From Streptomyces sp. SID3343 (lineage in GTDB: Bacteria; Actinomycetota; Actinomycetes; Streptomycetales; Streptomycetaceae): a stretch of DNA of 35,804 nucleotides. Positions within the stretch are counted from its first letter, which is position 1; every line of letters starts with the position of its first letter. The notes below the pieces were generated by a model. It worked only from the letters and a program-made list of their open reading frames with translations. It ran no database searches and had not been told where the DNA came from. The stretch lies in NCBI RefSeq assembly GCF_009865215.1, contig NZ_WWJX01000454.1, positions 1-35,804 of the forward strand, given 5' to 3'. The translations under genes and the position numbers were made by a program. Shown piece after piece: positions 2,277 to 26,512 of this stretch.

Positions 2277-2291
2277 TTGACGTCCCGTCGG
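2277..2291. promoter_or_regulatory. Degenerate copy of the CTGAC-N5-GTCAG operator
   Basis: TTGACGTCCCGTCGG differs from CTGACG-N3-CGTCAG at two of the twelve defined positions and lies directly before the start of the full-length acyl-CoA dehydrogenase. It is called because exact copies precede neighbouring catabolic genes. Alone it would not be convincing. Confidence 0.35.
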
Positions 2292-2328
2292 AGATCGGAC
2301 TACGAGATCGGACTACGAGATCGAGTTC
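2291..2328. repeat. 13-bp direct repeat in the gap before the dehydrogenase pair
   Basis: Two perfect copies of GAGATCGGACTAC (2291-2303 and 2304-2316) are followed by a decayed third copy. The rest of the gap to 2433 holds three occurrences of GCACGTACG, at roughly 2359-2412. No open frame of credible coding character is present. Confidence 0.8.
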
Positions 2329-2433
2329 GGGCTGTCGCATCGGCGCGTCACGCCCGCGAGGCACGTACGCGAAGCAAGCACGTACGCCAAGCCCGCCCGC
2401 GAAGCACGTACGAGAGACACACCGACCCCGGAA

Positions 2434-3342
2434 TCAGGCGCCGTAGACAGGCGTCGGAGCCGGCGCCTCGTCGATCAGCTTCGCGACGACCGGGCCCAGC
2501 TCGGCCGGGTTCCACCGCCGCCCCGCCTTGGCCTCCGGGCCGTGCTGCCAACCGGTGGCGACCGAGACCTTGTCGCCCTCGACCTCGAACACCCGGCCCG
2601 TGACGTCGCGCGACTCGGGCGAACCGAGCCAGACCACGAGCGGCGAGATGTTCGCCGGGTCGTAGAAGTCGAAGCTGCCGTCCTCGGGCTTGCGCACCAT
2701 GTCGGGCATGGCCTCTTCGGTCATCCGGGTGCGCGCGGCCGGCGCGATCGCGTTGGCGGTCACGCCGTAGCGGCCCATCTCGACCGCGGCGATCTGGGTC
2801 AGGCAGGTAATGCCGGCCTTGGCCGCCGCGTAGTTGCCCTGCCCGACCGAGCCCATCAGGCCCGCGCCCGACGTGGTGTTGATCAGGCGCGCGTCGATCG
2901 TGTTGCCGGCCTTGGCCTGCGCGCGCCAGTACGCGCCCGCGTGCTTCATCACCGCGAAGTGCCCCTTGAGGTGCACCCGAACGACCGCGTCGAACTCGTC
3001 CTCGCCGAGCGAGACGATCATCCGGTCCCGCAGGAAGCCCGCGTTGTTGACCACGACGTCGAGCCGTCCGAACGCGTCGATGGCGGTCTGTACCAGGCGC
3101 TCCGCGCCCGCCCAGTCGGCGACGTCGTCCGCGTTGATGACGGCCTTGCCGCCGAGTGCCTCGATGTCCGCGACGACCTGCTGGGCCGGACCGGGCGAAC
3201 GGCCGTCGCCCTGCCGCGAGGCGCCGATGTCGTTGACCACAACGTGCGCGCCCTCACGGGCGAATGCCAGCGCGTGCTCGCGCCCGATGCCACCGCCGGC
3301 ACCGGTGACGATGACGACGCGCCCCTCGCAGATCCCACTCAT
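2434..3342 (-). CDS. Short-chain dehydrogenase/reductase (302 aa)
   Basis: Classical SDR fold NAD(P)-dependent oxidoreductase. It shows the cofactor loop TGAGGGIG (13-20), NNAG (99-102), and a catalytic Ser (about 158), Tyr171 and Lys175 in YAAAK. The length and the spacing of the first part (NDIGASRQGDG) resemble the 3-hydroxyacyl-CoA dehydrogenase/17-beta-HSD4-like SDRs that work in acyl-CoA breakdown, which fits the neighbouring dehydrogenases. The ATG at 3342 is chosen because AAGGGG precedes it and the Rossmann motif begins at the usual distance. The open frame continues 50 codons upstream, but that part is a translation of a 32-bp tandem repeat and is rejected. The substrate is unknown. 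Confidence 0.93.
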   Translation of the reverse strand: MSGICEGRVVIVTGAGGGIGREHALAFAREGAHVVVNDIGASRQGDGRSPGPAQQVVADIEALGGKAVINADDVADWAGAERLVQTAIDAFGRLDVVVNNAGFLRDRMIVSLGEDEFDAVVRVHLKGHFAVMKHAGAYWRAQAKAGNTIDARLINTTSGAGLMGSVGQGNYAAAKAGITCLTQIAAVEMGRYGVTANAIAPAARTRMTEEAMPDMVRKPEDGSFDFYDPANISPLVVWLGSPESRDVTGRVFEVEGDKVSVATGWQHGPEAKAGRRWNPAELGPVVAKLIDEAPAPTPVYGA

Positions 3343-3424
3343 TCCAGGCCCCTTCGGCTCAACTGACGGCTGTTCCACTGACAACACGTCGAATGACAAC
3401 GAGACAAAACGCGACAACGAGAAA

Positions 3425-3510
3425 CCAAGACACCAAGAGACCGAGACACCGAGACGCCAAGACACCAAGAGACCGAAACACCGAGACGTCAAGACACCGA
3501 GACACCAGGT
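3425..3510. repeat. 32-bp tandem repeat, about 2.6 copies
   Basis: Copy 1 is 3425-3456 and copy 2 is 3457-3488. They are identical except for one G-to-A change at unit position 20. A shortened third copy follows from 3489. Each unit is built from smaller CAAGACAC / CGAGACAC words, so the array looks like a nested expansion. It lies upstream of the SDR gene, where its promoter would be expected. Confidence 0.9.
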
Positions 3511-3565
3511 CGAAATACCTCGGAAGCGGCCCGCCGATGAATTCGACGAGCCGCTCCCTGCCGCT

Positions 3566-3587
3566 GCGCCCGCATCCGTGCGGGCGC
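3566..3587 (-). terminator. GC hairpin after the amidohydrolase gene
   Basis: A 9-bp perfect stem (3566-3574 with 3579-3587) closes on a 4-nt loop, 72 bp past the amidohydrolase stop. There is no T-run, as is common for actinobacterial terminators. Confidence 0.55.
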
Positions 3588-3658
3588 CGCGTCGTCACCG
3601 ATCGACCGCCGACCGCCGATACCGCGGCACCAAGGCCGCCGGCGGGCCGATCCGGTGC

Positions 3659-4918
3659 TCAGACCGCCGCGACGCGGTCCTTGTCGAAGTCGAGGTCGAG
3701 CATCCGGATCGCGTTGCCCCGGATGATCTTGTAGACCGTCTCCTCGCTCAGACCCGCGAGGTGCTCCTCGGCGATCTTCTTGGTGTGCGGCCACGTGGAG
3801 TCGACGTGCGGGTAGTCGGTCTCGAACGTGACGTTGTCCTCGCCGATCGCGTCGAGCGAGTTCACGCCGTGCTGGTCCCGGAAGAAGCACGCGAACATGT
3901 TCCGTCGGAAGTAGAACGACGGCGGCTCAGGCAAAGCCTCGCCGGTGACCGCCCACGCGCGGTGCTCCAGCCAGACGTCGTCCATGCGCTCCAACGCGTA
4001 CGGGATCCAACCCATCTGGCCCTCGGAGTAGGCCAGCTTGATCTTAGGGAACCGGGCCGGAATGCCCGCGAAGATGAAGTCGGCCATCGAGGCCATCGCG
4101 TTGTTGAAGCTCAGCGACGCCTGGACCGCGGCCGGGGCATCGGGCGAGGCCGCCGGCATCGTCGAGGACGAGCCGATGTGCATGTTGATCGTCACGCCGA
4201 GGTCGGCGCAGACCTCGAAGAACGGGTCCCAGTAACCGGTGTGGATGCTGGGCAGACCCAGGAACGCCGGGATCTCGGAGAAGCACACGGCGGTGACCCC
4301 GCGAGCGCGGTTGCGCCGGATCTCCTCGACCGCGAGCTGTACGTCCCACAGCGGAATGATGATCAGCGGGATCAGGCGACCGCCCGAGTCGCCGCACCAC
4401 TCCTCGACCATCCAGTCGTTGTAGGCGCGCACGCACGCGAGCGCGACCTCCTTGTCCGCGGCCTCCGAGAAGGTCTGGCCGCAGAAGCGCGGGAAGGTCG
4501 GGAAACACAGCGAGGCCTCGACATGGTTGAGGTCCATGTCCTTGAGTCGCTCGGCCGGGTCGTAGAGTCCGGGGCGCATCTCGCCGCGGGTGATGCCTTC
4601 GAGGGTCATCTCGTCGCGGCTGAAGCCGACGGCGGCGATGTTGCGCTTGTACGGGAAGCGCAGATCCTCGTAGAACCACCAGTCGGCGAGCGGGCCGTTC
4701 GGGTCGGTGGTGATCCGGTAACTGGCGCCGATGTACTCCAGCTGCCCGATACCGGTCGTGACCGCCTGTGGGCCACGCTCGTGGTACTTCTTCGGCAGCC
4801 AGCGCTCGAACAGGTGCGCCGGCTCGATGACATGGTCATCGACGCTGATGATCTTCGGCAGCTCACCGAAAGAGTTTCCGGACTGCGTAGCAGTCTGCCC
4901 GGGCTGGTTGGTGCTCAT
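3659..4918 (-). CDS. Amidohydrolase family metal-dependent hydrolase (419 aa)
   Basis: TIM-barrel amidohydrolase of the Amidohydro_2 type, probably a decarboxylase or hydrolase acting on a carboxylated or ring-opened intermediate. Visible motifs are the first metal-ligand strand ISVDDHVIEP (D28 and H29 region), TINMHIGSSS in the middle, and the C-terminal FETDYPHVDSTWP, where the Asp usually completes the metal site. The ATG at 4918 is preceded by GGGAGGGG; an upstream ATG at 4990 would add 24 residues that read through the operator region and is rejected. It diverges from an isochorismatase-like gene, and the gap between them holds two palindromic operators. Its place among acyl-CoA enzymes suggests a role in a degradative pathway; the substrate is not deducible. 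Confidence 0.92.
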   Translation of the reverse strand: MSTNQPGQTATQSGNSFGELPKIISVDDHVIEPAHLFERWLPKKYHERGPQAVTTGIGQLEYIGASYRITTDPNGPLADWWFYEDLRFPYKRNIAAVGFSRDEMTLEGITRGEMRPGLYDPAERLKDMDLNHVEASLCFPTFPRFCGQTFSEAADKEVALACVRAYNDWMVEEWCGDSGGRLIPLIIIPLWDVQLAVEEIRRNRARGVTAVCFSEIPAFLGLPSIHTGYWDPFFEVCADLGVTINMHIGSSSTMPAASPDAPAAVQASLSFNNAMASMADFIFAGIPARFPKIKLAYSEGQMGWIPYALERMDDVWLEHRAWAVTGEALPEPPSFYFRRNMFACFFRDQHGVNSLDAIGEDNVTFETDYPHVDSTWPHTKKIAEEHLAGLSEETVYKIIRGNAIRMLDLDFDKDRVAAV

Positions 4919-4937
4919 CGGCCCCTCCCGCTCATGT

Positions 4938-4960
4938 AAATCTGATGGACCGTCAGATTT
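4938..4960. promoter_or_regulatory. Operator A: extended palindrome before the amidohydrolase
   Basis: AAATCTGA, 7 nt, then TCAGATTT is a perfect 8-bp inverted repeat. The core at 4942-4956 is CTGATGGACCGTCAG, one mismatch from CTGAC-N5-GTCAG. Possible -10 boxes flank it: TACGCT on the minus strand (4961-4966) and TAATCT on the plus strand (4965-4970). A bound repressor would therefore cover both start regions. Confidence 0.65.
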
Positions 4961-4991
4961 AGCGTAATCTCTGGGCCGAGGGAACCACAAG

Positions 4992-5006
4992 CTGACACAA
5001 CGTCAG
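4992..5006. promoter_or_regulatory. Operator B: CTGACACAACGTCAG before the isochorismatase-like gene
   Basis: This is an exact CTGAC-N5-GTCAG palindrome centred 50 bp from operator A. Its right end overlaps the AGGAGA ribosome-binding sequence of the gene starting at 5018. Confidence 0.6.
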
Positions 5007-5017
5007 GAGAATCACGG

Positions 5018-5632
5018 ATGGCTCTGTCACTCGCGGAACTGATCGCCCCCGGACACACCGCACTGATCACGCAGGAATGCCAGAACGGAGTGATCGGTGA
5101 GCAGGCCGTCTTTCCGGCGCTGACGGCACACACCAAGGACCTGATCCCGGCCGTCGACCGGCTCGCCAAGGCCGCCCGCAAGGTCGAGATCCCGGTCGTG
5201 CACTGCCTCGCGGTCCGCCGGCCCGACGGCCTGGGTGCGAACACCAACGCCCGGATGTTCGGCGCGGCGGCCAAGGCGTCGGTCCTCCTGGCGCCCGGTT
5301 CCGACGCCGCCGCGGTCGCCGACGGGATCACCGTGGACCCGCTCGACCTGGTGCTCTCGCGCTATCACGGGCTCGGCCCGATGGCCGACACCGGACTCGC
5401 CGCGACGCTGCGCAACATGGGCGTACGCACGATCGTCGGCGTCGGCGTCTCGCTCAACGTCGGCATGCTCAACTTCGCGATGGACGCGGTCAACGCGGGG
5501 TTCCAGTTCGTGTTGCCGCGCGAGGCGGTGGCCGGATTCCCGCCCGAATACGCGGAGATGGTGTTGGCGAACACGTTCAACGCGATTACGACGATCACCA
5601 CGGTCGACGCCGTCCTCGACGTGTGGAGCTGA
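5018..5632 (+). CDS. Isochorismatase-like (cysteine hydrolase fold) protein lacking the triad (204 aa)
   Basis: The alpha/beta fold of the isochorismatase/nicotinamidase superfamily is recognisable from TALITQECQNGV near residue 14 to GVSLNVGMLNFAMDAVNAGF at 143-162. The superfamily uses an Asp-Lys-Cys triad. Here the Asp position is Glu20, the Lys region reads LSRYHG, and the Cys position in the TN(I/V)CV motif is Gly149, so ordinary thiol hydrolysis should not occur. I recall similar Cys-less relatives in other actinobacteria, so this looks like a subfamily and not decay. The start is fixed by AGGAGA 7-12 nt upstream. It diverges from the amidohydrolase gene and shares its operators. A binding, lyase or isomerase role is possible. 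Confidence 0.88.
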   Translation: MALSLAELIAPGHTALITQECQNGVIGEQAVFPALTAHTKDLIPAVDRLAKAARKVEIPVVHCLAVRRPDGLGANTNARMFGAAAKASVLLAPGSDAAAVADGITVDPLDLVLSRYHGLGPMADTGLAATLRNMGVRTIVGVGVSLNVGMLNFAMDAVNAGFQFVLPREAVAGFPPEYAEMVLANTFNAITTITTVDAVLDVWS

Positions 5633-5675
5633 GCCACCGCGACCCCCGACCGCACTCCCCGCCCCGGCCCACGAC

Positions 5676-5715
5676 CGACGCGCGCCGGCACCGATATCGG
5701 TGCCGGCGCGCGTCG
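5676..5715. terminator. 40-bp perfect palindrome between convergent genes
   Basis: Arms 5676-5695 and 5696-5715 are exact reverse complements with no spacer (centre CCGATATCGG). It sits between the stop of the isochorismatase-like gene (5632) and the convergent acyl-CoA synthetase stop (5740), which fits a bidirectional terminator. Confidence 0.75.
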
Positions 5716-5739
5716 CTTCGGCCGTACGACGACCTCGGC

Positions 5740-7302
5740 TCAGCGCTGCGACGTCCAAGGCTTGGCGTCGTACTCCTCGCGGAGCTTGAACTTCAGCACC
5801 TTGCGCAGCGTCTCGTTGCGCGGAAGCGCGTCGACGACCTCCAGTTGCTCCGGGATCTTCTGCGTCATCAGGCCCGATTCGCGCAGGTACGCCACCATCT
5901 CGGCGAATTCGAGGTCGGCCTCGCCCGGCCGGCGCTCGACCACGGCGCAGACCCGCTCGCCGCGTTCGCGGTCGACCAAGCCGATCACCGCGGCGTCCGC
6001 GACCTTGGGGTGGGCGAAGAGCAGGTCCTCGATCTCGCGCGCGGAGATGTTCTCGCCCTTGCGGATGATCACGTCCTTGAGCCGGCCGGTCAGCGACAGG
6101 TGGCCGTCGGCGCGCAGCTTGCCCAGGTCACCGGTACGGAAGAAGCCGTCCTCGTCGAGCGCGTCGGCGGTCAGCGCCGGATCGGTGTAGCCCTTGAACA
6201 CCATCGGCCCACGCAACCGGACCTCGCCCTCCTCGTCGGCGTCGGCGATCGTGCCGTCGGCGCGCGCGATCCGCACCTCGATGCCGACCACCGGCTTGCC
6301 CTCGGTGTACGAGCGCTGGTCCTCGGAGTCGTGCGGGCCGCCCTGCGCGATCATCGGGACCTCGGTCATCCCGTAGCCGTGGCACAGGATCGCCTGCATC
6401 TCGTCGCGCACCTCGGCGACCAACTCCGGCGGCTTCGGGGCACCGCCACCGGAGACGATCCGCAGCGTCGGGATGATCTTCTCGCCGGGCTGCTTGCGCT
6501 GCTCGTTGAGGAACGCCACGTAGAACGCGGTGGATCCGCCGACCATGGTAACGCCGAGCCGCTTGTAGACGGGGATCACCCCGGCCGGGTCGAAGTTCTC
6601 CACGATCACGGCCGGGAAGCCGGAGGCGAGCACCGTGACGATGTAGTCCGGACCCGCGATGTGCGCGTACGGGAAGGCGATCGAGCCGACTTCGGTCTGC
6701 GCCATGCCGAGCGCGATGGCCAGCCCCTTGCCGCCCGCGAGCAGCGTCGAGTCGCTGTGCTGGACGCCCTTGGGGTCGGAGGTGGTACCGGAGGTGTAGT
6801 ACAGCCAGCGCACCTGGTCACCGTCGGTCGGCGCGGCGGGCAGGTCGGCCGGGTCGCCCTCGGGCAGTTCGTCGTACGCGACGAGCACGGTCGGCGGCTT
6901 GTCCAGGTCCTTGGCGATCGCCTCGCCCATCGCGAGGAAGTCGAAGCCCTTCCACGTGCGCGGACACAGGAAGAACTCGGCGTCGGTCTGGCGCAGACAG
7001 AAGCCGACTTCCTTCTCCCGGTAGAACGGGATGATCGGGTTCTGCACGGCGCCGAGCCGGGCGAGCGCGAACGAGACCACGATGGACTCGATACGGGTGG
7101 TGAGCTGCCAGGTCACCTTGGTGCCGGCGGTGATCCCGAGCGCGTGATAGCCCGCGGCCACGCGCTCGGCCCACGCCTTGAACTCGCCGAACGTGACCCT
7201 GCGGTCGTCCGGATCGAGCAGCATCGGAACGTCGGGAGTCGCCGCCGCGCGGCGCTCCACCAGCTCCCAGAGAGTGGTGGCGTCGTAGATCGGGTCAGAC
7301 AC
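5740..7302 (-). CDS. Acyl-CoA synthetase / AMP-dependent ligase (520 aa)
   Basis: ANL-superfamily ligase that activates a carboxylic acid with ATP and CoA. It shows the A3 phosphate loop YTSGTTSDPKG (169-179), the GYGMTEVP motif, TGDLGKL, the hinge GRLKDVIIRKGENIS, and a C-terminal lysine motif LPRNETLRKVLKFK that should hold the adenylation lysine. It resembles the cyclohexanecarboxylate-CoA and medium-chain fatty acid ligases more than long-chain FadD. The GTG at 7302 is chosen because GGAGG lies 4 nt upstream. ATG codons at 7341 and 7350 would add a Pro/Gly tail without family counterpart, and the longer open frame to 7563 is not credible. A CTGACGGTACGTCAG palindrome lies upstream at 7377-7391. 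It likely feeds the dehydrogenases to the left. Confidence 0.93.
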   Translation of the reverse strand: MSDPIYDATTLWELVERRAAATPDVPMLLDPDDRRVTFGEFKAWAERVAAGYHALGITAGTKVTWQLTTRIESIVVSFALARLGAVQNPIIPFYREKEVGFCLRQTDAEFFLCPRTWKGFDFLAMGEAIAKDLDKPPTVLVAYDELPEGDPADLPAAPTDGDQVRWLYYTSGTTSDPKGVQHSDSTLLAGGKGLAIALGMAQTEVGSIAFPYAHIAGPDYIVTVLASGFPAVIVENFDPAGVIPVYKRLGVTMVGGSTAFYVAFLNEQRKQPGEKIIPTLRIVSGGGAPKPPELVAEVRDEMQAILCHGYGMTEVPMIAQGGPHDSEDQRSYTEGKPVVGIEVRIARADGTIADADEEGEVRLRGPMVFKGYTDPALTADALDEDGFFRTGDLGKLRADGHLSLTGRLKDVIIRKGENISAREIEDLLFAHPKVADAAVIGLVDRERGERVCAVVERRPGEADLEFAEMVAYLRESGLMTQKIPEQLEVVDALPRNETLRKVLKFKLREEYDAKPWTSQR

Positions 7303-7376
7303 GTGTCCTCCGCGCGGGAAAGCCGGGCCGGGCGTACGCATCCAGGACATGGCGGTGCCAGGACCTGGGCGCTGAG

Positions 7377-7391
7377 CTGACGGTACGTCAG
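7377..7391. promoter_or_regulatory. Operator C: CTGACGGTACGTCAG before the acyl-CoA synthetase
   Basis: This is an exact CTGACG-N3-CGTCAG palindrome 75 bp upstream of the synthetase start. It shares both half-sites with operators A and B. Confidence 0.6.
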
Positions 7392-7487
7392 AAGCTTTCC
7401 GGGAAGGAAGACTTCGCGTGGTCACGCGCATCACAACAACGAAGTCGTGACGGTCGCGAACCCGGTGGATCTTGCCCTGGCCAAGTG

Positions 7488-7501
7488 AGGCAGTACTGCC
7501 T
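7488..7501. promoter_or_regulatory. Palindrome AGGCAGTACTGCCT between divergent genes
   Basis: A perfect 14-bp palindrome, extendable with one mismatch to 20 bp, lies 31 bp before the Rieske gene start in the gap shared with the acyl-CoA synthetase. It looks like a dimer operator distinct from the CTGAC-N5-GTCAG family. The cognate regulator is unknown. Confidence 0.45.
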
Positions 7502-7532
7502 AACCTGAGGAAATGCCGCCTGTTGTGAGCGG

Positions 7533-7916
7533 ATGATGGCACTGTTCCGGCGGGATCGCCCACCGGTCCGGCTGGCCGCGCTCGCCGACCTGCCCGAGGA
7601 CCTGCCGCGCCGGATCAGTACGAGCCCCCCACTCGCGGTGGTCCGACACGGCGAGACGGTGCACGTCTTCGAGGACCGCTGCCCCCACGCCGGCGCGATC
7701 CTCTCCCGCGGCGTCCTGGACGGAAATCGGCTGACCTGCCCGATCCACAAGGGCACCTTCGAAATCGACACGGGCCGATCGGTAGGCGGCGTGGCGTGCC
7801 GAACCCTGCGCACGTACCCCACCTGGGTCGAGAACGGCGACGTATACATGGCCGCCGAGCCGCGCGGACGGCGATCCGCGCGGCGGGCGAAGTGCGGGGG
7901 CGAGGACGGGGTCTGA
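7533..7916 (+). CDS. Small Rieske [2Fe-2S] protein (127 aa)
   Basis: Stand-alone Rieske domain with the two ligand pairs C50-P-H52 (CPHAG) and C69-P-I-H72 (CPIHKG), spaced as in NirD-like and dioxygenase ferredoxins. Such proteins pass single electrons to oxygenases or reductases in the cytoplasm. No membrane segment is seen. The tail (RRSARRAKCGG) is basic and probably disordered. The start at 7533 is tentative: ATGATG gives two choices and only a weak GAGCGG precedes them. It diverges from the acyl-CoA synthetase and ends 7 bp from the convergent TetR gene. No oxygenase partner is seen in the window. Confidence 0.88.
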   Translation: MMALFRRDRPPVRLAALADLPEDLPRRISTSPPLAVVRHGETVHVFEDRCPHAGAILSRGVLDGNRLTCPIHKGTFEIDTGRSVGGVACRTLRTYPTWVENGDVYMAAEPRGRRSARRAKCGGEDGV

Positions 7917-7923
7917 GGGCGTG

Positions 7924-8454
7924 TCAGGCCGAGAAGGCGCTGTGGCCACTGGCCCACGCGCCGGACAGGTCGGCGCCCGGCGGGAAGCGGCCTGCCAGTT
8001 CGAGGACGACCATGCCGTGGGCGAAGCCCCAGAGGGCGCGGGCCGTGTCGTGGTCGCCGCCGACGGCGCGCATGAGTGGTGCGGCGGCGCGGTCCTCCAG
8101 GCCGGCGGGAAGCGCGTCGCGGTCGAGCGGTTGGCCGCTCATCAGGCGGTACAGGTGCGGGTGGGCGAGGGCGTAGGCGCGGTAGGCGGCCAGGAGCGCG
8201 GCGATCGGGTCGCCGTCACCGGACGCCTCGGCGATCTCCAGGGCCTCGGCCAACTCGGCCATTCCCGCCGCGGTCAGCGCGGCCTCGACTGCGGACTTGT
8301 CGGGGAAGTGCTTGTACAGGGATGGCGCCCGGATGCCGATGCGATCCGCGATGCGCCGCATCGAGACCGCCTCCGGGCCTTCCTTCTCCAGCAGTTCGCG
8401 GGCGGCGCCGACGATCTCGCGGGCCCTGGGGCTGGGTGACGTCGGGTCAGACAT
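7924..8454 (-). CDS. TetR family transcriptional regulator (176 aa)
   Basis: The N-terminal TetR DNA-binding domain has its helix-turn-helix at about 31-52 (SMRRIADRIGIRAPSLYKHF). The C-terminal ligand domain contains ALWGFAHGMVVLELAGRF, typical of the WHG-type TetR C-terminal group. Its start overlaps the end of the DUF4260 gene by 8 bp, so translation is coupled. The two-gene unit is preceded by two near-identical palindromes (8908-8922 and 8941-8957), the expected arrangement for autorepression. The ligand is unknown; a lipophilic small molecule would be usual for the family. Confidence 0.93.
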   Translation of the reverse strand: MSDPTSPSPRAREIVGAARELLEKEGPEAVSMRRIADRIGIRAPSLYKHFPDKSAVEAALTAAGMAELAEALEIAEASGDGDPIAALLAAYRAYALAHPHLYRLMSGQPLDRDALPAGLEDRAAAPLMRAVGGDHDTARALWGFAHGMVVLELAGRFPPGADLSGAWASGHSAFSA

Positions 8455-8887: not shown

Positions 8888-8907
8888 TTCACCCTCCGGC
8901 CGCCACA

Positions 8908-8922
8908 GCTAACGACGTTAGC
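8908..8922. promoter_or_regulatory. TetR operator copy 1: GCTAACGACGTTAGC
   Basis: Perfect 6-3-6 palindrome 21 bp upstream of the DUF4260 start. It shares both half-sites with a second palindrome centred 34 bp further upstream. It is the likely binding site of the TetR protein encoded in the same operon. Confidence 0.75.
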
Positions 8923-8940
8923 CACCTGCGCCCATGATGG

Positions 8941-9843: not shown

Positions 9844-10842
9844 TCACCGCAACCGGCGCGCCGCCTCCGTGGCCCAATAGGTCAAAATCGAGGACGCACC
9901 CGCTCGCTTGATCGAGGTCAGCGTCTCCATCATCACCCGCTCGCGGTCGATCCAACCGTTGGCCGCGGCGGCCTCGACCATCGCGTACTCGCCGCTGACC
10001 TGGTAGGCCGCGACCGGCACGTGCACCTCGTCCGCGATCCGTCGGACGATGTCCAGATACGACATCGCCGGCTTGACCATCACCAGATCCGCGCCCTCGG
10101 CGACGTCCAACAGCACCTCGCGCACCGACTCCTCGGCGTTCGCGGGATCCTGCTGGTAGGTCGTGCGGTCGCCGCGCAACGTGGACTCGACCGCCTCGCG
10201 GAACGGGCCGAAGAAGCCGGACGCGTACTTCGCGCTGTAGGCCAGGATCGACACGTCCTGATACCCGGCGCCGTCCAACGCTCGCCGGATCACCCCGACC
10301 TGACCGTCCATCATCCCGCTGGGCCCGACCATGTGGACGCCCGCGTCGGCCTGGACGACGGCCATCCGCGCGTACGCCTCCAGCGTCGCGTCGTTGTCGA
10401 CCGACCCGTCGGCGGCCAGCACTCCGCAGTGCCCGTGGTCGGTGAACTCGTCGAGGCACAGGTCCGACATCACCACGGTGTCGGAGCCCACCTCCGCGAC
10501 CACGTCGCGGATCGCGACCTGCAGCACGCCCTCCGGGTCGAACCCGGCCGAGCCGAGCGCGTCCTTGTCCGTCGGGATGCCGAACAGCATGATGCCGCCG
10601 ACGCCGGCCGCGACCGCGTCGTGCGCGGCCTTGCGCAGCGAGTCGCGGGTGTGTTGGACCACGCCCGGCATGGACGAGATCGCCACCGGCTCGGTCGCGC
10701 CCTCCCGGACGAACATCGGGAGGATCAGATCGGCGGGATGCAGCCGGGTCTCCGCGACCAGGCGGCGCACCGCCGGGGACGTGCGCAACCGCCTCGGGCG
10801 GTGCGCGGGAAACCCTGACGATGCGTCAGCCTGGTACGACAT
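9844..10842 (-). CDS. hemB: Delta-aminolevulinic acid dehydratase (porphobilinogen synthase), 332 aa
   Basis: Joins two 5-aminolevulinate molecules into porphobilinogen in the cytoplasm. The two Schiff-base lysines are at Lys205 (AYSAKYAS) and Lys257 ([11 protein letters not shown]). The metal-site loop reads [14 protein letters not shown] (127-140), where two of the three zinc cysteines of the E. coli type are not cysteine (Leu and Asp are visible), consistent with the Mg-dependent class. It is the last gene of the rex-hemA-hemC-hemD-hemB run and starts 5 bp after the hemD stop. Only a distant GGAAGG precedes the ATG, so translation may depend on hemD. Codons 5-9 contain a perfect CTGACG-N3-CGTCAG palindrome. 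Confidence 0.97.
10815..10829. promoter_or_regulatory. CTGACGATGCGTCAG palindrome inside hemB codons 5-9
   Basis: This exact match to the operator family seen before the acyl-CoA genes lies 14-28 nt into hemB. It could be an intragenic roadblock site or chance; its position within a coding region lowers confidence. Confidence 0.3.
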
Positions 10843-10847
10843 GAGAA

Positions 10848-19948: not shown

Positions 19949-19973
19949 CGCCGGTACCCGGGTGCGGTCGGTG

Positions 19974-20013
19974 CCGAAGGGCGGCTCGTGGAGGTTCGCG
20001 AGTCGCCCTTCGG
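19974..20013. terminator. Bidirectional hairpin between rsbN and the acyltransferase
   Basis: A 15-bp stem (19974-19988 with 19999-20013, one G-U pair) and 10-nt loop lie between two convergent genes, 26 bp after rsbN and 33 bp from the acyltransferase stop. Confidence 0.8.
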
Positions 20014-20045
20014 GTTCGAGGTGACCGGTCGAGGCCGGGTCGGGG

Positions 20046-21176
20046 TCAGAAGAACACCGACCGTCGCTGCATCAGCAGGCGGTAGATCGTGTGCTGGATG
20101 GTCTCGCGCACCTCGTCGGTCAGGTTGAAGACGACCATCGGGTCGTCCGCCGCCTCCTCCGGATACGCGTCGGTTCGAATCGGCGCGCCGAACTCGATCC
20201 TCCACCGGGTCGGCAGTGGCACCAGGCCCAGCGGTCCGAGCAGCGGAAACGTGGGCGTGACCGGGAAGTACGGCAGGTTCAGCAGGCGCGCGAGCGTGCG
20301 CACGTTGCCGACCATCGGGTAGATCTCCTCGGCGCCCACGATCGAGCAGGGGACGATCGGTACCTGGGTTCGCAGGGCGGCCGACACGAAACCACCTCGG
20401 CCGAAGCGCTGGAGCTTGTACCGCTCGCCGAACGGCTTGCCCAGGCCCTTGTAGCCTTCCGGCCACACGCCCACGAGTTCGCCCTTGGCGAGCAGGCGCT
20501 CGGCGTCGGCGTGGCATGCGAGCGTGTGCCCGCTCTTGCGGGCCACCGAGCCCACGACCGGCAGTTGGAAGACCAGGTCGGCGGCGAGCAGTCGCAGGTT
20601 GCGCTGGTCTGGGTGGTGGTCGTGGACGGCCACCTGGGTCATCAGCGCGTCCACCGGCAGCGTGCCCGAGTGGTTCGCGACGATCAGCGCGCCGCCGTCG
20701 GCGGGGATGTGCTCCAGGCCGCTGACCTCGATGCGGAAGTACTTTTCGTACACGACGCGCAGCGCGGCCATCAGTCGGTCGTTGAGTTCGGGGTCGAAAC
20801 CGAACTCGTCCACCTCGTAGTCGCCGGTGATCCGGCGGCGCACGAACGCGAGGCCGTCTGCGGCCTTGTCCTCCCAACCGGGGCCCGCGACACCGTCGAG
20901 CAGTCCGGCGGCGGCGCCGCCCACGATTCCGCCGACCGCGCCGGCGAGTGAGCCGAGCACCGATCGTCCGGAGGCGGGGGTCCGGCGGGGGCCGATCGGC
21001 GATGGTTGTGGATCGGGCCCTGGGCGCGCGTCGATCGAGCGCACCCGTACCTCGCCTTCGACCGGTTCCGTTCCCCGTGCTCGCGCGGGCCGCGTCGATC
21101 GGCGGCCGCCGCGCGGCGACGGCGGGCGCGCTGCGGACGCGGCGCCGTCGAAGGGAATGATCCGGGCGTCACCCAT
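20046..21176 (-). CDS. PlsC-like phospholipid acyltransferase (376 aa)
   Basis: Lysophospholipid/1-acylglycerol-3-phosphate acyltransferase family. The catalytic region is IVANHSGTLPVDALM with His169; Asp176 lies seven residues later, where classical PlsC has HX4D, so the loop is longer. The second block VGVWPEGYKGLGKPFG (about 235-250) replaces the usual FPEGTRS. The first about 110 residues are Pro/Arg/Gly-rich with one short Gly/Ala hydrophobic stretch (75-96) and look disordered. It starts 8 bp inside the epimerase-like gene, so the two are translationally coupled. Similar pairs occur across actinobacteria. The acyl donor and acceptor are not evident. Confidence 0.9.
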   Translation of the reverse strand: MGDARIIPFDGAASAARPPSPRGGRRSTRPARARGTEPVEGEVRVRSIDARPGPDPQPSPIGPRRTPASGRSVLGSLAGAVGGIVGGAAAGLLDGVAGPGWEDKAADGLAFVRRRITGDYEVDEFGFDPELNDRLMAALRVVYEKYFRIEVSGLEHIPADGGALIVANHSGTLPVDALMTQVAVHDHHPDQRNLRLLAADLVFQLPVVGSVARKSGHTLACHADAERLLAKGELVGVWPEGYKGLGKPFGERYKLQRFGRGGFVSAALRTQVPIVPCSIVGAEEIYPMVGNVRTLARLLNLPYFPVTPTFPLLGPLGLVPLPTRWRIEFGAPIRTDAYPEEAADDPMVVFNLTDEVRETIQHTIYRLLMQRRSVFF

Positions 21177-22203
21177 CGAGACTCCTCCTGGTGAGCAGCA
21201 TGGTCGCGAGTCGATCGGGCACCTGTGCGAGGCGCCCGGGGTTCAGCAGGCCGATCGAGTCGCGGCCGCCCGCGTAGTCGGCGAAGGTCTCGGCCGTGGT
21301 CCTGGCCGCGACGAAACCCAGCTTGTCACGGGCTCGCGCGGGGTCGACGACGCGGCCGTGGGTGAGCAGGCGCAGCTGTTCGGCCGACAGGTGGACCGAG
21401 CCCACCCGGCGCAAGCCCTGGTTGACCAGCCCCACCGCCGCCGACGGGAAGGGCAGCACCGGGCGCCCGAGGCGGCGGGCGGCCTGGGACAGGAACAGCA
21501 CGCCGTCCGCGGCGATGTTGTAGGTGCCCGCACGGTCGGCCCGGGCGGCGATCCGCAGGGCCTCCAGGACGTCGTCCTCGTGGACGAACTGCAATCGCGG
21601 GTCGTAGCCGAGGACCGTCGGCAGCACGGGCAGCGCGAAGTAGGCGCCCATCGGCGAATCGGTTCGTGGCCCCAGCATCGGCGCGAAGCGCAGCACCGTG
21701 ACGGCGACGTCGGGGCGGCGGCGGGCGAACCCGCGCACGTAGCCCTCTATTTCGACGGCGTCCTTGGCCCAGCCCGACGACGGCTGTATGCGCGGTTCGG
21801 TGTCCTCCTCGAACAGCGCGGGGTCGCGCGCCGAGCCGCCGTAGACGGCGGTGGTCGAGCGCACCACCAGGCGGCGGACCGACGGTGCCTTCTGGCACGC
21901 GGCGAGCAACTGCATCGTGCCGATGACGTTGGTCTCCTTGATCGAGACCCGGCCGCCCTGCACCGGCGGCAACTCGCTGGGGCTCAGGTGCACCACGGTG
22001 TCCACCGCCGCGGAGGCGACGACCTTGGCGATCATCGGGTTTCGGATGTCGGCGAGCACGAAGTCGATGTCGCCGAAGTCGCCCGCGGGCTCGACCATGT
22101 CGACGCCGATCACCCGGTCGACGTCGCCTTCGTCGCGGATCATCCGTACGAAATCGGCCCCCGGGTCACCGGCGACGCCGGTGACCATGACAACACGTCC
22201 CAT
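21169..22203 (-). CDS. NAD-dependent epimerase/dehydratase-like protein (344 aa)
   Basis: Extended-SDR fold with the cofactor loop TGVAGDPG (8-15), the ligand strand FVLADIRNP and the signature RSTTAVYGGSA. The catalytic YxxxK is absent: the segment is PSSGWAKDAVEIEG, where Lys147 is preceded by Ser four residues earlier and Trp145 beside it. The enzyme may be inactive, use another acid, or serve as an NAD-binding scaffold. The ATG at 22203 follows GGGGGAAA and gives the standard MGRVVMVTG start; the ATG at 22284 adds 27 residues without family support. It is coupled to the downstream acyltransferase. Confidence 0.9.
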   Translation of the reverse strand: MGRVVMVTGVAGDPGADFVRMIRDEGDVDRVIGVDMVEPAGDFGDIDFVLADIRNPMIAKVVASAAVDTVVHLSPSELPPVQGGRVSIKETNVIGTMQLLAACQKAPSVRRLVVRSTTAVYGGSARDPALFEEDTEPRIQPSSGWAKDAVEIEGYVRGFARRRPDVAVTVLRFAPMLGPRTDSPMGAYFALPVLPTVLGYDPRLQFVHEDDVLEALRIAARADRAGTYNIAADGVLFLSQAARRLGRPVLPFPSAAVGLVNQGLRRVGSVHLSAEQLRLLTHGRVVDPARARDKLGFVAARTTAETFADYAGGRDSIGLLNPGRLAQVPDRLATMLLTRRSLDG

Positions 22204-22572
22204 GCTGCGGTTTCCCCCGCCCGTTTCGAAATCGCCGCGCGACGGAGCGGTCACAGAGCGCATGTGCGAGGCGATGGGATCCAACGTATCTGCACCGACT
22301 ACCCGACGGGGGCGCGTTTACGAGCAGTTCACACCGGTTTCGCGCCGATGCGCGCCGGTCGACTCGTTCAGCGTAAGCGGCTGGGCCGCCCGCCTCCGCG
22401 AGCGACACCGCCGCAGCGACGTCGCGTGCCGCCTGTCGCGACGCCGCGTCCGCGTCCGCGTCTACGGATACCGGACGCGGGCCCGTAACGCACGACGACC
22501 GCCCGTCGCGCCCCCGAGGGGAGCACGACGGGCGGTCGCCCAAGGCTTCAGCGGCACTAGCCGGTGGGATGC
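22204..22572. other. 369-bp gap between the epimerase-like gene and the bS22 gene
   Basis: No gene was recognised. The part nearest the bS22 gene holds a strong hairpin (22496-22538) and, at about 22444-22482, a run of GCGTCC repeats that can pair with GGACGCGG. The remainder must contain the promoter of the epimerase-acyltransferase unit, but no convincing boxes were identified. Confidence 0.6.
22496..22538 (-). terminator. Hairpin after the bS22 gene
   Basis: A 13-bp perfect stem (22496-22508 with 22526-22538) has a 17-nt loop and lies 35 bp after the stop of the small ribosomal protein gene. Confidence 0.75.
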
Positions 22573-22671
22573 CTACTTCTTATTGCGACGCTGCACACGC
22601 GTCTTCTTGAGAAGCTTGCGGTGCTTCTTCTTCGCCATGCGCTTGCGACGCTTCTTGATGACAGAGCCCAC
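22573..22671 (-). CDS. bS22-type ribosomal protein / AURKAIP1-COX24 domain (32 aa)
   Basis: A 32-residue, extremely basic protein beginning (V/M)[18 protein letters not shown] and ending VQRRNKK. This is the actinobacterial AURKAIP1/COX24-domain peptide, identified in mycobacteria as the small-subunit ribosomal protein bS22. It starts at GTG 22671 with GAGGG about 7 nt upstream and stops with TAG. It has its own terminator-like hairpin downstream and sits between the epimerase-like gene and bdtA, a conserved position. It is short enough to be missed by gene callers with a length cut-off. Confidence 0.93.
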
Positions 22672-22791
22672 CGACAACCCTCGCTTACGTCACGTTCTTA
22701 CCGCACGGAGCCGGATCAGCCCGCACAACTGGGGGCCAGCCTACTCGCCGCCCCGGCCCACCTCTAAACGAGGCGGTCCGATACTGCACTC

Positions 22792-22995
22792 CTACGCTGT
22801 TTCCACGTAGGAGTCTCGCAGGTAGTCGTGGACGGCCTGCTCCGGAACTCGGAACGACCGGCCAACCCTGATGGCAGGCATCTCGCCACTGTGAACCAGG
22901 CGATACACCGTCATCTTGGACACCCGCATCACCGCGGCCACCTCGGCCACAGTCAAGAAGTTGACCTCGTTGAGAGGCCTCTCTCCAGAAACCAT
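22792..22995 (-). CDS. bdtA: BdtA-type helix-turn-helix protein (67 aa)
   Basis: Small excisionase/MerR-like DNA-binding protein. The winged helix reads FLTVAEVAAVMRVSKMTVYRL, followed by VHSGEMPAIRVGRSFRVPEQAV and the short tail LRDSYVETA. It matches my memory of S. coelicolor SCO3328 (BdtA), a BldD target with unknown regulon. The start at 22995 keeps the conserved SGERPLNEV N-terminus; an in-frame ATG at 23010 adds five residues, and neither has a strong ribosome-binding sequence. An ACGCACGTGCGT palindrome lies 59-70 bp upstream. Confidence 0.9.
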   Translation of the reverse strand: MVSGERPLNEVNFLTVAEVAAVMRVSKMTVYRLVHSGEMPAIRVGRSFRVPEQAVHDYLRDSYVETA

Positions 22996-23053
22996 GACGC
23001 ACCGAACCATTCAGCACGCGTCGGGCGCCGGCTTCCCCTCCGGCGACTGCCAC

Positions 23054-23065
23054 ACGCACGTGCGT
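23054..23065. promoter_or_regulatory. Palindrome ACGCACGTGCGT upstream of bdtA
   Basis: Perfect 12-bp palindrome in the bdtA promoter region. It could be an operator; no regulator is known to me for this sequence. Confidence 0.3.
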
Positions 23066-23146
23066 CTTTCGAGAGTAGTGGCAGGTGGTACCAGTGGGGA
23101 AGAGGAGTGGTTATCCCACCTCAATCGCCCATTGGACTTCTTTACC

Positions 23147-23186
23147 GATCGATCCAGGACAGTACGGATCGATTCAGGACAGTTGG
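23147..23186. repeat. 20-bp direct repeat across the phosphatase stop codon
   Basis: Copies 23147-23166 and 23167-23186 share GATCGAT(C/T)CAGGACAGT. The second copy encodes the last codons and stop of the phosphatase; the first lies just past the stop. Confidence 0.85.
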
Positions 23187-23980
23187 GACCGGGCGAGCAC
23201 GTACGTCATGAGTGGTTTGTACAGGTGCGGAGCCACGTTGTCGTCGAGGGGTACGACCACTTCGACTCGCCCCTCCTCGGCCCCCACGAACAGCGCCGGA
23301 TCGTTGCAGTCGGCGAATCCGATCGCCGCGACACCCGCCTGACCTGCGCCTCCGGCCCAGCCGTGGTCGCCGATCACCAGGTCCGGCAGCGGCTCGCGTC
23401 GGGCCGCGAGTTCGGCCAACATCGCGCGGATGGCACGGGCGGAGTGCGTGTGCCGGAAGTCGCCCGCGTCGTCGGTGACCATGGCGACATCGCCCGCGTA
23501 GCGCACCGTGCGGGTGTGCCCGCCCTCGGCGGTGGGGGTGCGATATGTCCACCCTCTCGCGGGGCGCAGGATGGTACACCCCGCGTCGCGCAGCACGCGC
23601 GCCAGCGTGCGGTACCAGTCCTTTAGGCCGTTCGGGTGACCCGTGGCGACGATCACGCGCTCGCGGCGGGCGGCGGCGAGCGCGACGCGGTCGGCGTACG
23701 CGTCGAGTCCGGCGATCGTCAGGTCGGGATCGATCGTGTCCTGGCCGTTGCGGTGGGCCGGATCGGCGACGACTCCACAACGGCGGACCATCAGGTCGAG
23801 CACGTCGGCGGCGGTCCACCTGCCGTCGGGTTCGAGGCCGAACAGGTGGCCGGGATGGCGTTCGCTCATCAGCCGGTAGTGCCGGAGATTGTTCTCCCGT
23901 GAGGTCGCCACGTCGCCGGCGATCCGGCCGCGCACGAGGTGGGAGCGAAGCTCCGCAGGGGTGGGAACCGCAACGGTCAC
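23174..23980 (-). CDS. Phosphatase-like conserved actinobacterial protein (268 aa)
   Basis: A conserved streptomycete protein generally annotated as a phosphatase. Visible landmarks are RIAGDVATSRENNLRHY near the N-terminus, GQDTIDPDLT, VIVATGHPNGLKDW, GDVAMV, LVIGDHGWAGGAGQ and the end VVPLDDNVAPHLY. The HGW and GHP motifs carry invariant-looking histidines that may bind metal, but I cannot assign a mechanism. The GTG at 23980 is chosen because AAGGAG lies 6-12 nt upstream; a longer frame from 24139 enters acuC. It follows acuC by 28 bp on the same strand and is probably co-transcribed. Confidence 0.85.
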   Translation of the reverse strand: MTVAVPTPAELRSHLVRGRIAGDVATSRENNLRHYRLMSERHPGHLFGLEPDGRWTAADVLDLMVRRCGVVADPAHRNGQDTIDPDLTIAGLDAYADRVALAAARRERVIVATGHPNGLKDWYRTLARVLRDAGCTILRPARGWTYRTPTAEGGHTRTVRYAGDVAMVTDDAGDFRHTHSARAIRAMLAELAARREPLPDLVIGDHGWAGGAGQAGVAAIGFADCNDPALFVGAEEGRVEVVVPLDDNVAPHLYKPLMTYVLARSQLS

Positions 23981-24008
23981 GCACAGCTCCTTGGGTCGAT
24001 CGAACGAG

Positions 24009-25214
24009 TCACAGATCGAACATCGGGTCGAGGCCGTGCGCGGGAAAGACCGCTCGGCGCGTGGCCAAAATCGCCTGGTCGGTGCGATCCGCCGGGTCGT
24101 AACCGGCCGAGAACGGCCGAAAACAGCCGGTCCCGCCATCGGTCATGCGTTGCGGGCTCGGCTCGCGGGTCAACAGGCGGACCTCCTCGCGCCAGTCGAG
24201 CGGCACGTCGCACGCGGGGTCGATCGGGTGCCCGGCCGCCTCGGCCACCAGGTGTGTCCACGAGCGCGGGACCACGTCCACCACCGCATAACCCCCGCCG
24301 CCGGTGGCGACCCAGCGCCCACCGGCGTGCTCGTGGGCGAGGGCGTGCAGCGCGGCGTGCGTGACGCGCTGCGCGTCCAGGCTCAGCGCGAGGTGTGCCT
24401 GTTGGTCCTCCACGTGGGTGTCGGCGCCGTGCTGGGTGACGAGCACCTGAGGACGGAACTCGGCGAGCAGCGGCGGGACCACGGCGTCGAACGCGCGCAG
24501 CCAGGCTGCGTCGGAGATCCCCGGTGGCAACGCGACGTTGACCGCGCTGCCCTGGGCGTCGGGCCCGCCGACCTCGTCCACGAAGCCGGTGACGTAGGGG
24601 AACAGGAACCGCGGGCTCTCGTGCAGGCTGATGGTGAGCACCCGAGGGTCGTTCCAGAACGCCTTTTGCACGCCGTCGCCGTGGTGCACGTCGACGTCGA
24701 CGTAGGCGACCCGCTCGGCGCCGAGTTCGAGCAGGCGCGCGATGGCGAGCGCGGGGTCGTTGTACACGCAGAAGCCGGCGGCCGCGTCCGGCATCGCGTG
24801 GTGCAGGCCGCCCGCGAAGTTGACCGCGTGCTCGGCCCCCTCGGGGTGGTCGGGGCCCAGCCACACGGCCTCGGCGGCGGCGATCGAGGCGCCCGCGATC
24901 AGCGCGGACACGTCGTGCATGTGCGCGAACGCGGGGGTGTCCTGGGTGCCCAGGCCGAACTCCTCGGGCGCCTTTTCGGGGTCGATCGACGCGCGGCGCA
25001 CCGCGGCGACGAGCTCTTCGGTGTGCACCATGGCGAGTTGCCGGTCGGTGGCGATCCGCGGTGCGCGCACGGTCAGTTCGGGCAGGGTGTGCAGGCCGAA
25101 CGCGCGAATGAGGTCGATCGTCAGGCGCAGCCGTACGGGCTTCATCGGATGCCACGAACCGAAGTCGTAACCGGTCATCCGGTCGTCCCACATCACGTGC
25201 ACGGCTCGACTCAT
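24009..25214 (-). CDS. acuC: Acetoin utilisation protein AcuC / class I histone deacetylase-like (401 aa)
   Basis: Zinc-dependent deacetylase. The histidine dyad is His138-His139 (GGLHHAMPD). The zinc ligands are Asp175 and His177 (DVDVHHGDG) and Asp265 (TQHGADTH), and the transition-state tyrosine is Tyr309 (TGGGGYAV). In bacteria AcuC reverses lysine acetylation of acetyl-CoA synthetase and other enzymes, linking it to acyl-CoA metabolism. The N-terminus MSRAVHVMWDDRMTGYDFG is standard. There is no Shine-Dalgarno; a TAGCGT box lies 6 nt before the ATG, so the mRNA may be leaderless. Confidence 0.95.
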   Translation of the reverse strand: MSRAVHVMWDDRMTGYDFGSWHPMKPVRLRLTIDLIRAFGLHTLPELTVRAPRIATDRQLAMVHTEELVAAVRRASIDPEKAPEEFGLGTQDTPAFAHMHDVSALIAGASIAAAEAVWLGPDHPEGAEHAVNFAGGLHHAMPDAAAGFCVYNDPALAIARLLELGAERVAYVDVDVHHGDGVQKAFWNDPRVLTISLHESPRFLFPYVTGFVDEVGGPDAQGSAVNVALPPGISDAAWLRAFDAVVPPLLAEFRPQVLVTQHGADTHVEDQQAHLALSLDAQRVTHAALHALAHEHAGGRWVATGGGGYAVVDVVPRSWTHLVAEAAGHPIDPACDVPLDWREEVRLLTREPSPQRMTDGGTGCFRPFSAGYDPADRTDQAILATRRAVFPAHGLDPMFDL

Positions 25215-25220
25215 GCCGTC

Positions 25221-25226
25221 ACGCTA
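25221..25226 (-). promoter_or_regulatory. Candidate -10 box (TAGCGT) of leaderless acuC
   Basis: TAGCGT on the minus strand ends 6 nt before the acuC ATG and no ribosome-binding sequence intervenes. The -35 is weak. Confidence 0.35.
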
Positions 25227-25246
25227 CCGCCCGAGTCGGCTCTCGA

Positions 25247-26443
25247 TCATCGGTCGTGAGCCGGTTCACCGTGGGGGGCGAAAGCCCGGGCCAGGGGCAG
25301 TACCGCGAGCACCAGGACGAGTGGCACGAGCATCGCGATCCGAAACGACGCGAGGTCGGCGATTCCGCCGACGAGTGGGGTCCCGATCAGGAAGCCGGCG
25401 TAGTTGAAGATGTTGAGCCTGGCCACCGATTCGTCCGCGTCCGCGGGGGCTCCTCGGCCGCCCGCGGCGAAGGTCTGCGGGACGATCACGCACAGGCCCA
25501 CGCCCAGGATCACGAAGCCGAGCAGGCCCACCGCCGCGTGCGGTGCGGCCAGCACGACCGCGAAGCCCAGGGCCGAGACCACGCTGCCGGCGCGCACCAC
25601 GTTGACCATGCCCCAGCGGCGCACGCCCAGGTCGCCGACGCTGCGCCCGATCAGCGACGTGACCATGTACGCGATGTAGGGGACGGTCGCGAAGCCCTCG
25701 GAGCTGTCCAGGACCTTCTCCAGGTAGACCGCGCTCCAGTTGGCCACGGTCGAGTCGCCGATGTAGGCGAACGTCATCACGGCGCACAGCGGGAGCAGCG
25801 GGCCCCACGGGATCTTGCGCACCGGCTCGGTGGGGTCCGCGACCGTGACGGGGTCGGCTCGCAGGTAGCCCGAGCCGACGGCGAGCACGGCGGGCACGGT
25901 CAGCACGGCCGCGCCGGCGTACATCAGCACCAGGGGGACGTCGCCCCACGCGCACAGGCCGGCCACGCCCGCGCCGGCGAGGCCGCCGAGGCTGTACGAC
26001 GCGTGGAAGCCGAGCATGATGCTGCGACCCTCGCGAGCCTGGATCGCGACGCCCTGCATGTTCATCGTCGCGTCGACCGCGCCGAGTGACATGCCGAACA
26101 CGAAGAGCACGATGGCCAGTTGCCACAGTTGGTCGCCCGCTCCGACGCCGATCAGGATCGCGCAGACGATCGGCTGCGACACCCGCAGCACGGTGTGGCT
26201 GCCGTAGCGCTTGGCCAGTGACCCGGCGAGCACGCTGCCCACACCGGCGACGATCGGCACGACCGACAGGACCGCGGTCAGCGTGCCGTCGCCCATGTCG
26301 TAGCGGCGTTGGATCGCCGGGATCCGGGTCACGAGCAGGGCGAAGGACGCGCCCTGGATCAAGAAGCACGCGAGCAGGCTGAACCGTGCACGGCGCAGCG
26401 TCTCGTCCCTGGACGGCCCGGCCGCCGGTTGTGTCACCTGCAT
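25247..26443 (-). CDS. MFS transporter (398 aa)
   Basis: Major facilitator with about twelve hydrophobic segments. The motif-A-like loop GSLAKRYGSHTVLRVSQ follows helix 2, and DLGVRRWGMVNVVRAGSV is the matching loop in the second half. The best resemblance is to YbjJ/FucP-like permeases of unknown substrate. TAGCGT lies 8 nt before the ATG, again with no Shine-Dalgarno. A one-mismatch copy of the CTGAC-N5-GTCAG palindrome lies at 26498-26512, 55 bp upstream, so it may share control with the acyl-CoA block at the left of the window. Export or uptake cannot be decided. Confidence 0.92.
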   Translation of the reverse strand: MQVTQPAAGPSRDETLRRARFSLLACFLIQGASFALLVTRIPAIQRRYDMGDGTLTAVLSVVPIVAGVGSVLAGSLAKRYGSHTVLRVSQPIVCAILIGVGAGDQLWQLAIVLFVFGMSLGAVDATMNMQGVAIQAREGRSIMLGFHASYSLGGLAGAGVAGLCAWGDVPLVLMYAGAAVLTVPAVLAVGSGYLRADPVTVADPTEPVRKIPWGPLLPLCAVMTFAYIGDSTVANWSAVYLEKVLDSSEGFATVPYIAYMVTSLIGRSVGDLGVRRWGMVNVVRAGSVVSALGFAVVLAAPHAAVGLLGFVILGVGLCVIVPQTFAAGGRGAPADADESVARLNIFNYAGFLIGTPLVGGIADLASFRIAMLVPLVLVLAVLPLARAFAPHGEPAHDR

Positions 26444-26497
26444 GGGCGTGCACGCTACCGACGGGTCACTTCCGCGGACAGAGGGCGGGGGATCTTT

Positions 26498-26512
26498 TTG
26501 ACTAGCCGTCAG
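26498..26512. promoter_or_regulatory. TTGACTAGCCGTCAG: one-mismatch operator before the MFS gene
   Basis: Matches CTGAC-N5-GTCAG with one change and lies in the promoter region of the MFS transporter, 40 bp past the end of the upstream HAD gene. Confidence 0.45.

Follow-up and report, generated by a model that had tools for sequence, protein, structure and literature searches.

KstR of mycobacteria is a TetR-family regulator that controls a large lipid-degradation regulon as well as its own gene, with a palindrome over the -10 region of that gene, sites in many divergent promoters and some in coding sequences; the first search with its operator, TnnAACnnGTTnnA, returned 16 intergenic sites in Mycobacterium tuberculosis and 31 in M. 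smegmatis (PMC1995591). The mycofactocin repressor MftR is likewise a TetR protein, which binds T-N2-GGCA-N5-TGCC-N2-A at the mft promoter and has long-chain acyl-coenzyme A (acyl-CoA) effectors (PMC8728441). Here we describe a 15-bp palindrome, CTGAC-N5-GTCAG, in a stretch of 35,804 nucleotides from Streptomyces sp. SID3343 (NZ_WWJX01000454.1, our C1200; hereafter the window, which is the entire contig in an assembly of 11.06 Mb and 1645 contigs). We put at roughly 78% the probability that a TetR-family repressor with a TetR_C_38 domain, autoregulated and acting over genes of CoA-ester catabolism, uses this palindrome as its operator. The computed support consists of the excess of the motif, the specificity of its N5 spacing, its promoter bias, the enrichment of its target genes, its conservation, an operator at the regulator's own gene and the TetR fold of the protein, and also of the clustering of sites around the TetR gene and a partial co-occurrence with that gene.

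The present system resembles KstR in the type of regulon, in its apparent autoregulation, in an own-gene site that overlaps a -10 element, in its divergent promoters and in having some coding-sequence sites, but its operator is CTGAC-N5-GTCAG and not TnnAACnnGTTnnA; AACNNGTT was found within 150 bp of only three of the 84 sites that lie between genes in this genome. With MftR it shares the N5 operator geometry, and the acyl-CoA effector, a feature of MftR, is one that we presume for the candidate. The mycofactocin operator itself was rejected as an identity for the palindrome, since the arms are CTGAC/GTCAG here and GGCA/TGCC there. Neither the KstR equivalog model NF033703 nor the MftR model matched the candidate at E 0.001, and a search of NCBIfam gave two weak matches only. 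On the features tested the candidate works like KstR and MftR and is a member of neither. The AlphaFold model of a Streptomyces orthologue (L238) has a mean predicted local distance difference test score of 89 and ten helices in an all-helical TetR fold, and its best Foldseek match is EthR of M. tuberculosis (template modelling score ~0.79), which is also the nearest Protein Data Bank sequence by the helix-turn-helix (HTH) region but is only ~18% identical over the fold. The operator and the targets of EthR differ from those of the candidate. The TetR-type acyl-CoA regulators FadR, PsrA and DesT are of the same functional class; the FadR and DesT structures rank below EthR among the fold matches, no family-level match to any of the three was obtained in NCBIfam, and their operators differ from CTGAC-N5-GTCAG.

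The exact palindrome occurs 141 times in the 11.06 Mb genome, against four occurrences of a reversed-pattern control and 19 matches, summed over four spacings, for the same arms set N6 to N9 apart, and 173 kb of control segments from the same genome contained no exact site. The preliminary description, made from the window alone, had suggested a scan of the full genome and named a distribution at the base-composition rate as grounds for dismissal; the rate is instead ~30 times that of the controls. Among the spacings N0 to N15, N5 alone was clearly in excess in sampled DNA of three genomes, where one-mismatch N5 copies were likewise above expectation. An artefact of the coding frame was rejected, as the same-phase spacings N2, N8, N11 and N14 gave 0-3 exact matches per set versus 37-140 for N5. 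Around intergenic sites the half-sites are flanked by A at -2 in 51% and by G at +5 in 70%, which gives the extended consensus ATCTGACG-N3-CGTCAGAT, and A at -2 on both sides was seen in 25 intergenic and three intragenic sites versus 59 and 51 of the remaining ones (p = 3e-4). Further out there is little conservation, which points to separate binding sites rather than copies of a repeat; an origin from a mobile repeat was rejected because the flanks past two bases are unconserved.

For the placement of the sites we used 138 of the 141, as sites were merged on the basis of the sequence around them, and genes were called, in the control DNA as well, with a home-made codon-based caller that clips some starts (e.g. 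that of hemB, so that the site at 10815 was tallied as intergenic). The 173 kb of control loci comprised 20 arbitrary contigs and five stretches from long contigs that bear sites elsewhere. Between genes lie 84 of the 138 distinct sites, whereas ~26% of the control DNA is non-coding, so the motif is not equally common inside genes, the other outcome that would have told against the preliminary description, yet 54 were called intragenic. Divergent gaps hold 31 of 78 sites where 16.5 were expected (p = 3e-4 over three orientations), convergent gaps seven where 10.7 were expected, and 54 of the 84 intergenic sites have a gene start no more than 150 bp away, versus 45% of intergenic positions picked at random (p = 3e-4). 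Pfam assigned 127 families in all to the 93 first genes behind intergenic sites, led by short-chain dehydrogenases/reductases (SDR, 7), class III CoA-transferases (4) and luciferase-like monooxygenases (4), then enoyl-CoA hydratases, SnoaL proteins and ATP-binding cassette transporters (3 each), and AMP-binding ligases, thiolases, acyl-CoA dehydrogenases, amidohydrolases, major facilitator superfamily (MFS) transporters and MarR proteins (2 each). Each CoA or SDR family has at most one member among the 89 first genes of the control set. Queries of CoA and SDR type matched 25 of the 93 first genes and two of the 89 controls (p = 1e-6), and still 16 of 79 versus two of 89 (p = 1.3e-4) when the loci that supplied most queries were set aside. 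The earlier proposal of a shared TetR-type operator is supported, and so is that of a regulon built mainly around CoA-ester and SDR genes.

The likely owner of the operator appears to lie off the window, on contig C352, and answers the suggestion to look for a TetR gene preceded by the same palindrome. The gene begins 4 bp after an SDR gene with which it forms an operon, and an exact site lies 89 bp upstream of the SDR gene and 111 bp upstream of an enoyl-CoA hydratase gene that runs divergently. The product matches PF19352 (TetR_C_38) with 216.9 bits and PF00440 (TetR HTH) with 24.4 bits, the cut-off being 24. Six exact sites fall within 12 kb of the gene where 0.31 were expected (P = 9e-7), and near the orthologues of two other genomes three of seven sites fall within 5.3 kb (G098) and four of nine within 26.5 kb (G246), these spans having been picked once the positions were known in all three genomes. 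Four of the five TetR genes detected in the GTDB loci listed are orthologues (two from Streptomyces, one from Actinomadura xylanilytica and one from a metagenome-assembled genome), which together with the one from this genome are 45-88% identical; the profile used, which was built up from the two TetR genes of the window, may have missed others. The surroundings of the gene (C352:38000-65852; L134, L135 and L048) form a catabolic island with a ligase, two enoyl-CoA hydratases, an acyl-CoA dehydrogenase, a thiolase, an SDR, a flavin reductase and a CoA-ligase-like gene, reminiscent of the clusters for steroid-ring degradation. The two TetR genes of the window (7924-8454 and 31647-32306) are probably not the owners, as neither has an exact site close upstream, and the preliminary description was probably right to discount them. 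The first of the two is an unlikely owner; a one-mismatch copy at 8436-8450 lies in its first codons, placed like the start site of the candidate owner's gene. In the open-access literature we found no publication on this regulator, its TetR_C_38 domain, the operator or the regulon, which agrees with the earlier guess that the regulon was undescribed.

The regulator's own gene carries a related site over its start. In the 30 best-scoring orthologue loci out of 92 genomes (own included), which are mutually related, a one-mismatch site containing the tetR ATG is present in 30 of 30, reading CTGACGGCATGACAG in 29 and CTGACGCCATGACAG in one, and it shares bases with a -10-like element (TAAACT or TAAGCT) spaced as in a leaderless transcript. 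The codons ACA GGA CAA, uncommon choices at 70% G+C, are invariant in all 30 loci, and early synonymous positions are unchanged; the invariance suggests a constraint at the DNA level. Where the regulator gene starts, a stretch of some 40 bp (L357-L386) is near-invariant across many genera, A/T-rich synonymous positions included, in the layout of a leaderless promoter. A second sample took in 20 regulator stretches, two of which (G098 and G108) were not matched by the helix pattern while three of the 18 read (G005, G006 and G007) repeated genomes among the 30; in nine of the 15 further loci so obtained, a site with no more than one mismatch lies close before the gene, the chance of such a site within 250 bp being ~0.01. 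The upstream sites of other lineages are different ones, exact in G246 and with one mismatch in G100.

In the window, all six positions named in the preliminary description carry the letters given there, and the three exact copies (4992, 7377 and 10815) are far above chance, as it had argued: ~0.015 per window is predicted from the N6-N9 controls, and at least three would occur with P ~6e-7. Its near-matches did not stand as a class. Copies with at most two mismatches number 20, versus 22 +/- 5 in shuffled sequence, so that only exact or independently supported copies count, and other one-mismatch copies (1445, 7913, 8436 and 13283) had been omitted. Conservation appears to rescue the copy at 4942 alone: its core, with one mismatch to the consensus, is identical in six of six relatives from two genera, and the larger palindrome around it sits ~20 bp upstream of the amidohydrolase start. 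The 4992 site is kept in the same number of aligned relatives while its spacer bases differ, with a single arm change (CCGAC) in all three of the second genus. The centres of the two sites are 50 bp apart, or about five helical turns, which would place them on the same face of the helix, where both could be occupied together. The 7377 site is identical in three of three same-genus relatives despite a diverged left flank, the three second-genus alignments having ended short of it. The 10815 site, taken earlier to precede a gene, in fact lies inside hemB; both of its arms are retained in six of six relatives through spacer changes and adjacent indels, and its position resembles that of the candidate TetR gene's own site over the start codon. 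Among the window's non-catabolic genes, hemB of the haem operon alone carries an exact site. In three same-genus relatives the 26498 copy departs from the consensus at two positions, its right half being conserved, and it is probably not a full operator. An Rfam search of the window gave no match.

Table 1. Palindrome copies and associated genes in the window, with the candidate regulator gene on contig C352 of the same genome (G000).
Feature	Coordinates	Strand	Remark
Two-mismatch copy before acyl-CoA dehydrogenase gene	2277..2291		unsupported; two-mismatch copies occur at chance rate
Amidohydrolase (Amidohydro_2)	3659..4918	-	proposed target; start set by gene caller
25-bp palindrome TAAATCTGATGGACCGTCAGATTTA	4937..4961		one mismatched pair; core 4942-4956
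Exact operator-like site CTGACACAACGTCAG	4992..5006		3' edge meets ribosome-binding site of isochorismatase-like gene
Isochorismatase-like hydrolase	5018..5632	+	proposed target
Acyl-CoA ligase (AMP-binding)	5740..7302	-	proposed target
Exact operator-like site CTGACGGTACGTCAG	7377..7391		74 bp 5' of acyl-CoA ligase start, 141 bp 5' of Rieske protein
Rieske [2Fe-2S] protein	7533..7916	+	possible target across 7377 site
HemB (delta-aminolevulinic acid dehydratase)	9844..10842	-	site at 5' end
Exact operator-like site CTGACGATGCGTCAG	10815..10829		within hemB codons 5-9 (ATG at 10842)
One-mismatch copy before MFS transporter gene	26498..26512		weak
Candidate owner TetR (TetR_C_38) gene	C352:53067-53714 (= L134:15068-15718)		SDR-TetR operon

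In regards to other genomes, the extended pattern was found in at least 120 loci of GTDB genomes, which are not a random sample and in 10 of which (of 120) no genes were called. Among the 80 named matches listed, 28 are from Streptomyces and 16 from Acidimicrobiia or Acidimicrobiales, with a scatter of others that includes non-actinobacterial names. Extended sites fall within called genes in five of ~110 informative loci, and the recurrent neighbours among the matches listed, as read by eye from representatives, are SDR, luciferase-like, acyl-CoA dehydrogenase and amidohydrolase genes, frequently 2 to 60 bp downstream; 15 of the loci listed have a DoxX-like gene that precedes a DUF35-like one. 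The regulator has an orthologue in 92 of 120 searched genomes (own included, TetR_C_38 matches below 28 bits being scored as absent), among them all 72 searched relatives of the source family, in single copy except for one genome with two, all 14 genomes of family f3, and G098, G099, G100, G108 and G117. The orthologue of the last (L399/L444) has an internal TGA stop, and that genome is not enriched for the palindrome. In G001, G002, G003, G020 and G030 the regulator gene shares a contig with the window's region, ~42-67 kb off. The Streptomyces orthologues resemble those of family f1, and the window probably comes from Streptomycetaceae, perhaps from Embleya. Pooled medians drew on 20 of the 72 family members, six of the 14 of family f3 and G073; the co-occurrence tests took in every class member beyond the order (32) and every phylum member beyond the class (181). 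In the latter the motif tracks the orthologue (seven genomes with it versus 174 without, p = 4e-5, shared ancestry uncorrected); in the former the highest motif densities are those of G099 (296 sites) and G100 (21), both with an orthologue, and G073, of the same order as these two, has no orthologue and three sites.

Several observations weigh against an operator of the TetR_C_38 protein. Co-occurrence is not significant in the class outside the order (five genomes with and 27 without an orthologue, p = 0.12), and the genomes in these tests are not independent. Few sites are found despite an orthologue in G098 (7), G108 (5) and G117 (6), and G014, a member of the family, has an intact orthologue yet five sites. 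The site at the regulator's own gene is imperfect, with GACAG for GTCAG, an exact copy was seen close upstream only in G246, and in six of the 15 further loci (G099, G142, G153, G167, G117 and G081) no copy within one mismatch lies close before the gene. The 54 intragenic sites of this genome exceed the control prediction. No promoter bias is seen among sites sampled from two genomes with ~300 sites each: G028 gave 24 intergenic and 24 intragenic sites, with one divergent, and G099 gave 15 intragenic sites and 22 intergenic ones, of which 15 are convergent, the samples being biased by the pattern that picked the stretches. Their intergenic sites are mostly at convergent or tandem gene ends, where the TGA of the site often doubles as a stop codon (L317-L356). 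Either the TetR protein has a wider role in these genomes or a second process has spread the same motif; an enrichment for A at -2 and G at +5 in these sites, too, speaks for the same protein.

These last sites also speak for a palindrome that is mainly a structural or housekeeping element of the whole genome (in nucleoid organisation, termination or similar), with promoter sites as a by-product, a view that could call as well on the 54 of 138 intragenic sites here and on exact-site counts that span 41-346 inside one genus. We consider it unlikely, given the promoter bias, the target enrichment, the conserved promoter sites and the clustering around the TetR gene in G000, G098 and G246, the rarity of intragenic extended sites elsewhere, and a constant N5 with a free spacer, which fits a dimer. 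It is a poor bet, too, that the operator is real and belongs to another regulator, such as a KstR-like TetR protein on contig C1113 (L081:1696-2400). An exact site lies 100 bp upstream of that gene's start, the only such own-promoter site for a profile-detected TetR among the examined loci of this genome, and the gene adjoins a cytochrome P450 gene and is divergent from a CoA-transferase gene. Its high-identity orthologues (74-91%), however, are confined to genera g1 and g2 and do not track the motif counts; the genomes richest in sites have no close one (a distant match only in G006, none reported for G028), and the promoter also bears a KstR-type box, GAGAACGTGTTC, the likelier operator for a KstR-like protein. 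The region L081:1696-2550 thereby brings both elements together in one promoter.

The preliminary description had favoured a single local pathway made up of the window's amidohydrolase, isochorismatase, ligase, dehydrogenase and transporter genes, which in its strict form would include a regulator of their own. The three conserved sites beside the first three genes stand; the regulon is genome-wide, with 138 exact sites elsewhere, neither the dehydrogenase pair (2277) nor the transporter (26498) has a supported site, and hemB is marked too, so that a purely local system is very improbable. As for chance or base composition, the near-matches of the window do occur at the shuffled rate, but 141 exact sites versus 4-5 expected, together with their conservation, refute it for the exact sites and make it hardly credible overall.

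Under the reading that we prefer, the palindrome as operator of the TetR_C_38 protein, a dimer of this protein would bind at promoters and gene starts of ligases, acyl-CoA dehydrogenases, enoyl-CoA hydratases, thiolases, CoA-transferases, SDRs, luciferase-like monooxygenases and amidohydrolases, and once bound would block the initiation of transcription. It would limit its own expression through the site that spans the start codon and the -10-like element, and would be released by an inducer, an acyl-CoA or a related lipid. Direct binding, and repression rather than activation, are what we infer, and release by acyl-CoA is probable from the target genes and from related regulators. More speculatively, the protein may have one of the widest reaches of any acyl-CoA regulator in actinobacteria, and in the lineages with 250-350 sites, many of them intragenic or convergent, it might have taken on the part of a nucleoid-associated-like protein that acts across the genome and is tied to CoA-ester status, an extension that we hold to be rather improbable.

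A regulator gene conserved in 72 of 72 family relatives thus appears to be without a description in the open-access literature. Its operator gives a map of the catabolic genes for lipid and xenobiotic CoA esters, many of which are poorly annotated, and the site in hemB hints at a link between CoA-ester catabolism and haem synthesis.

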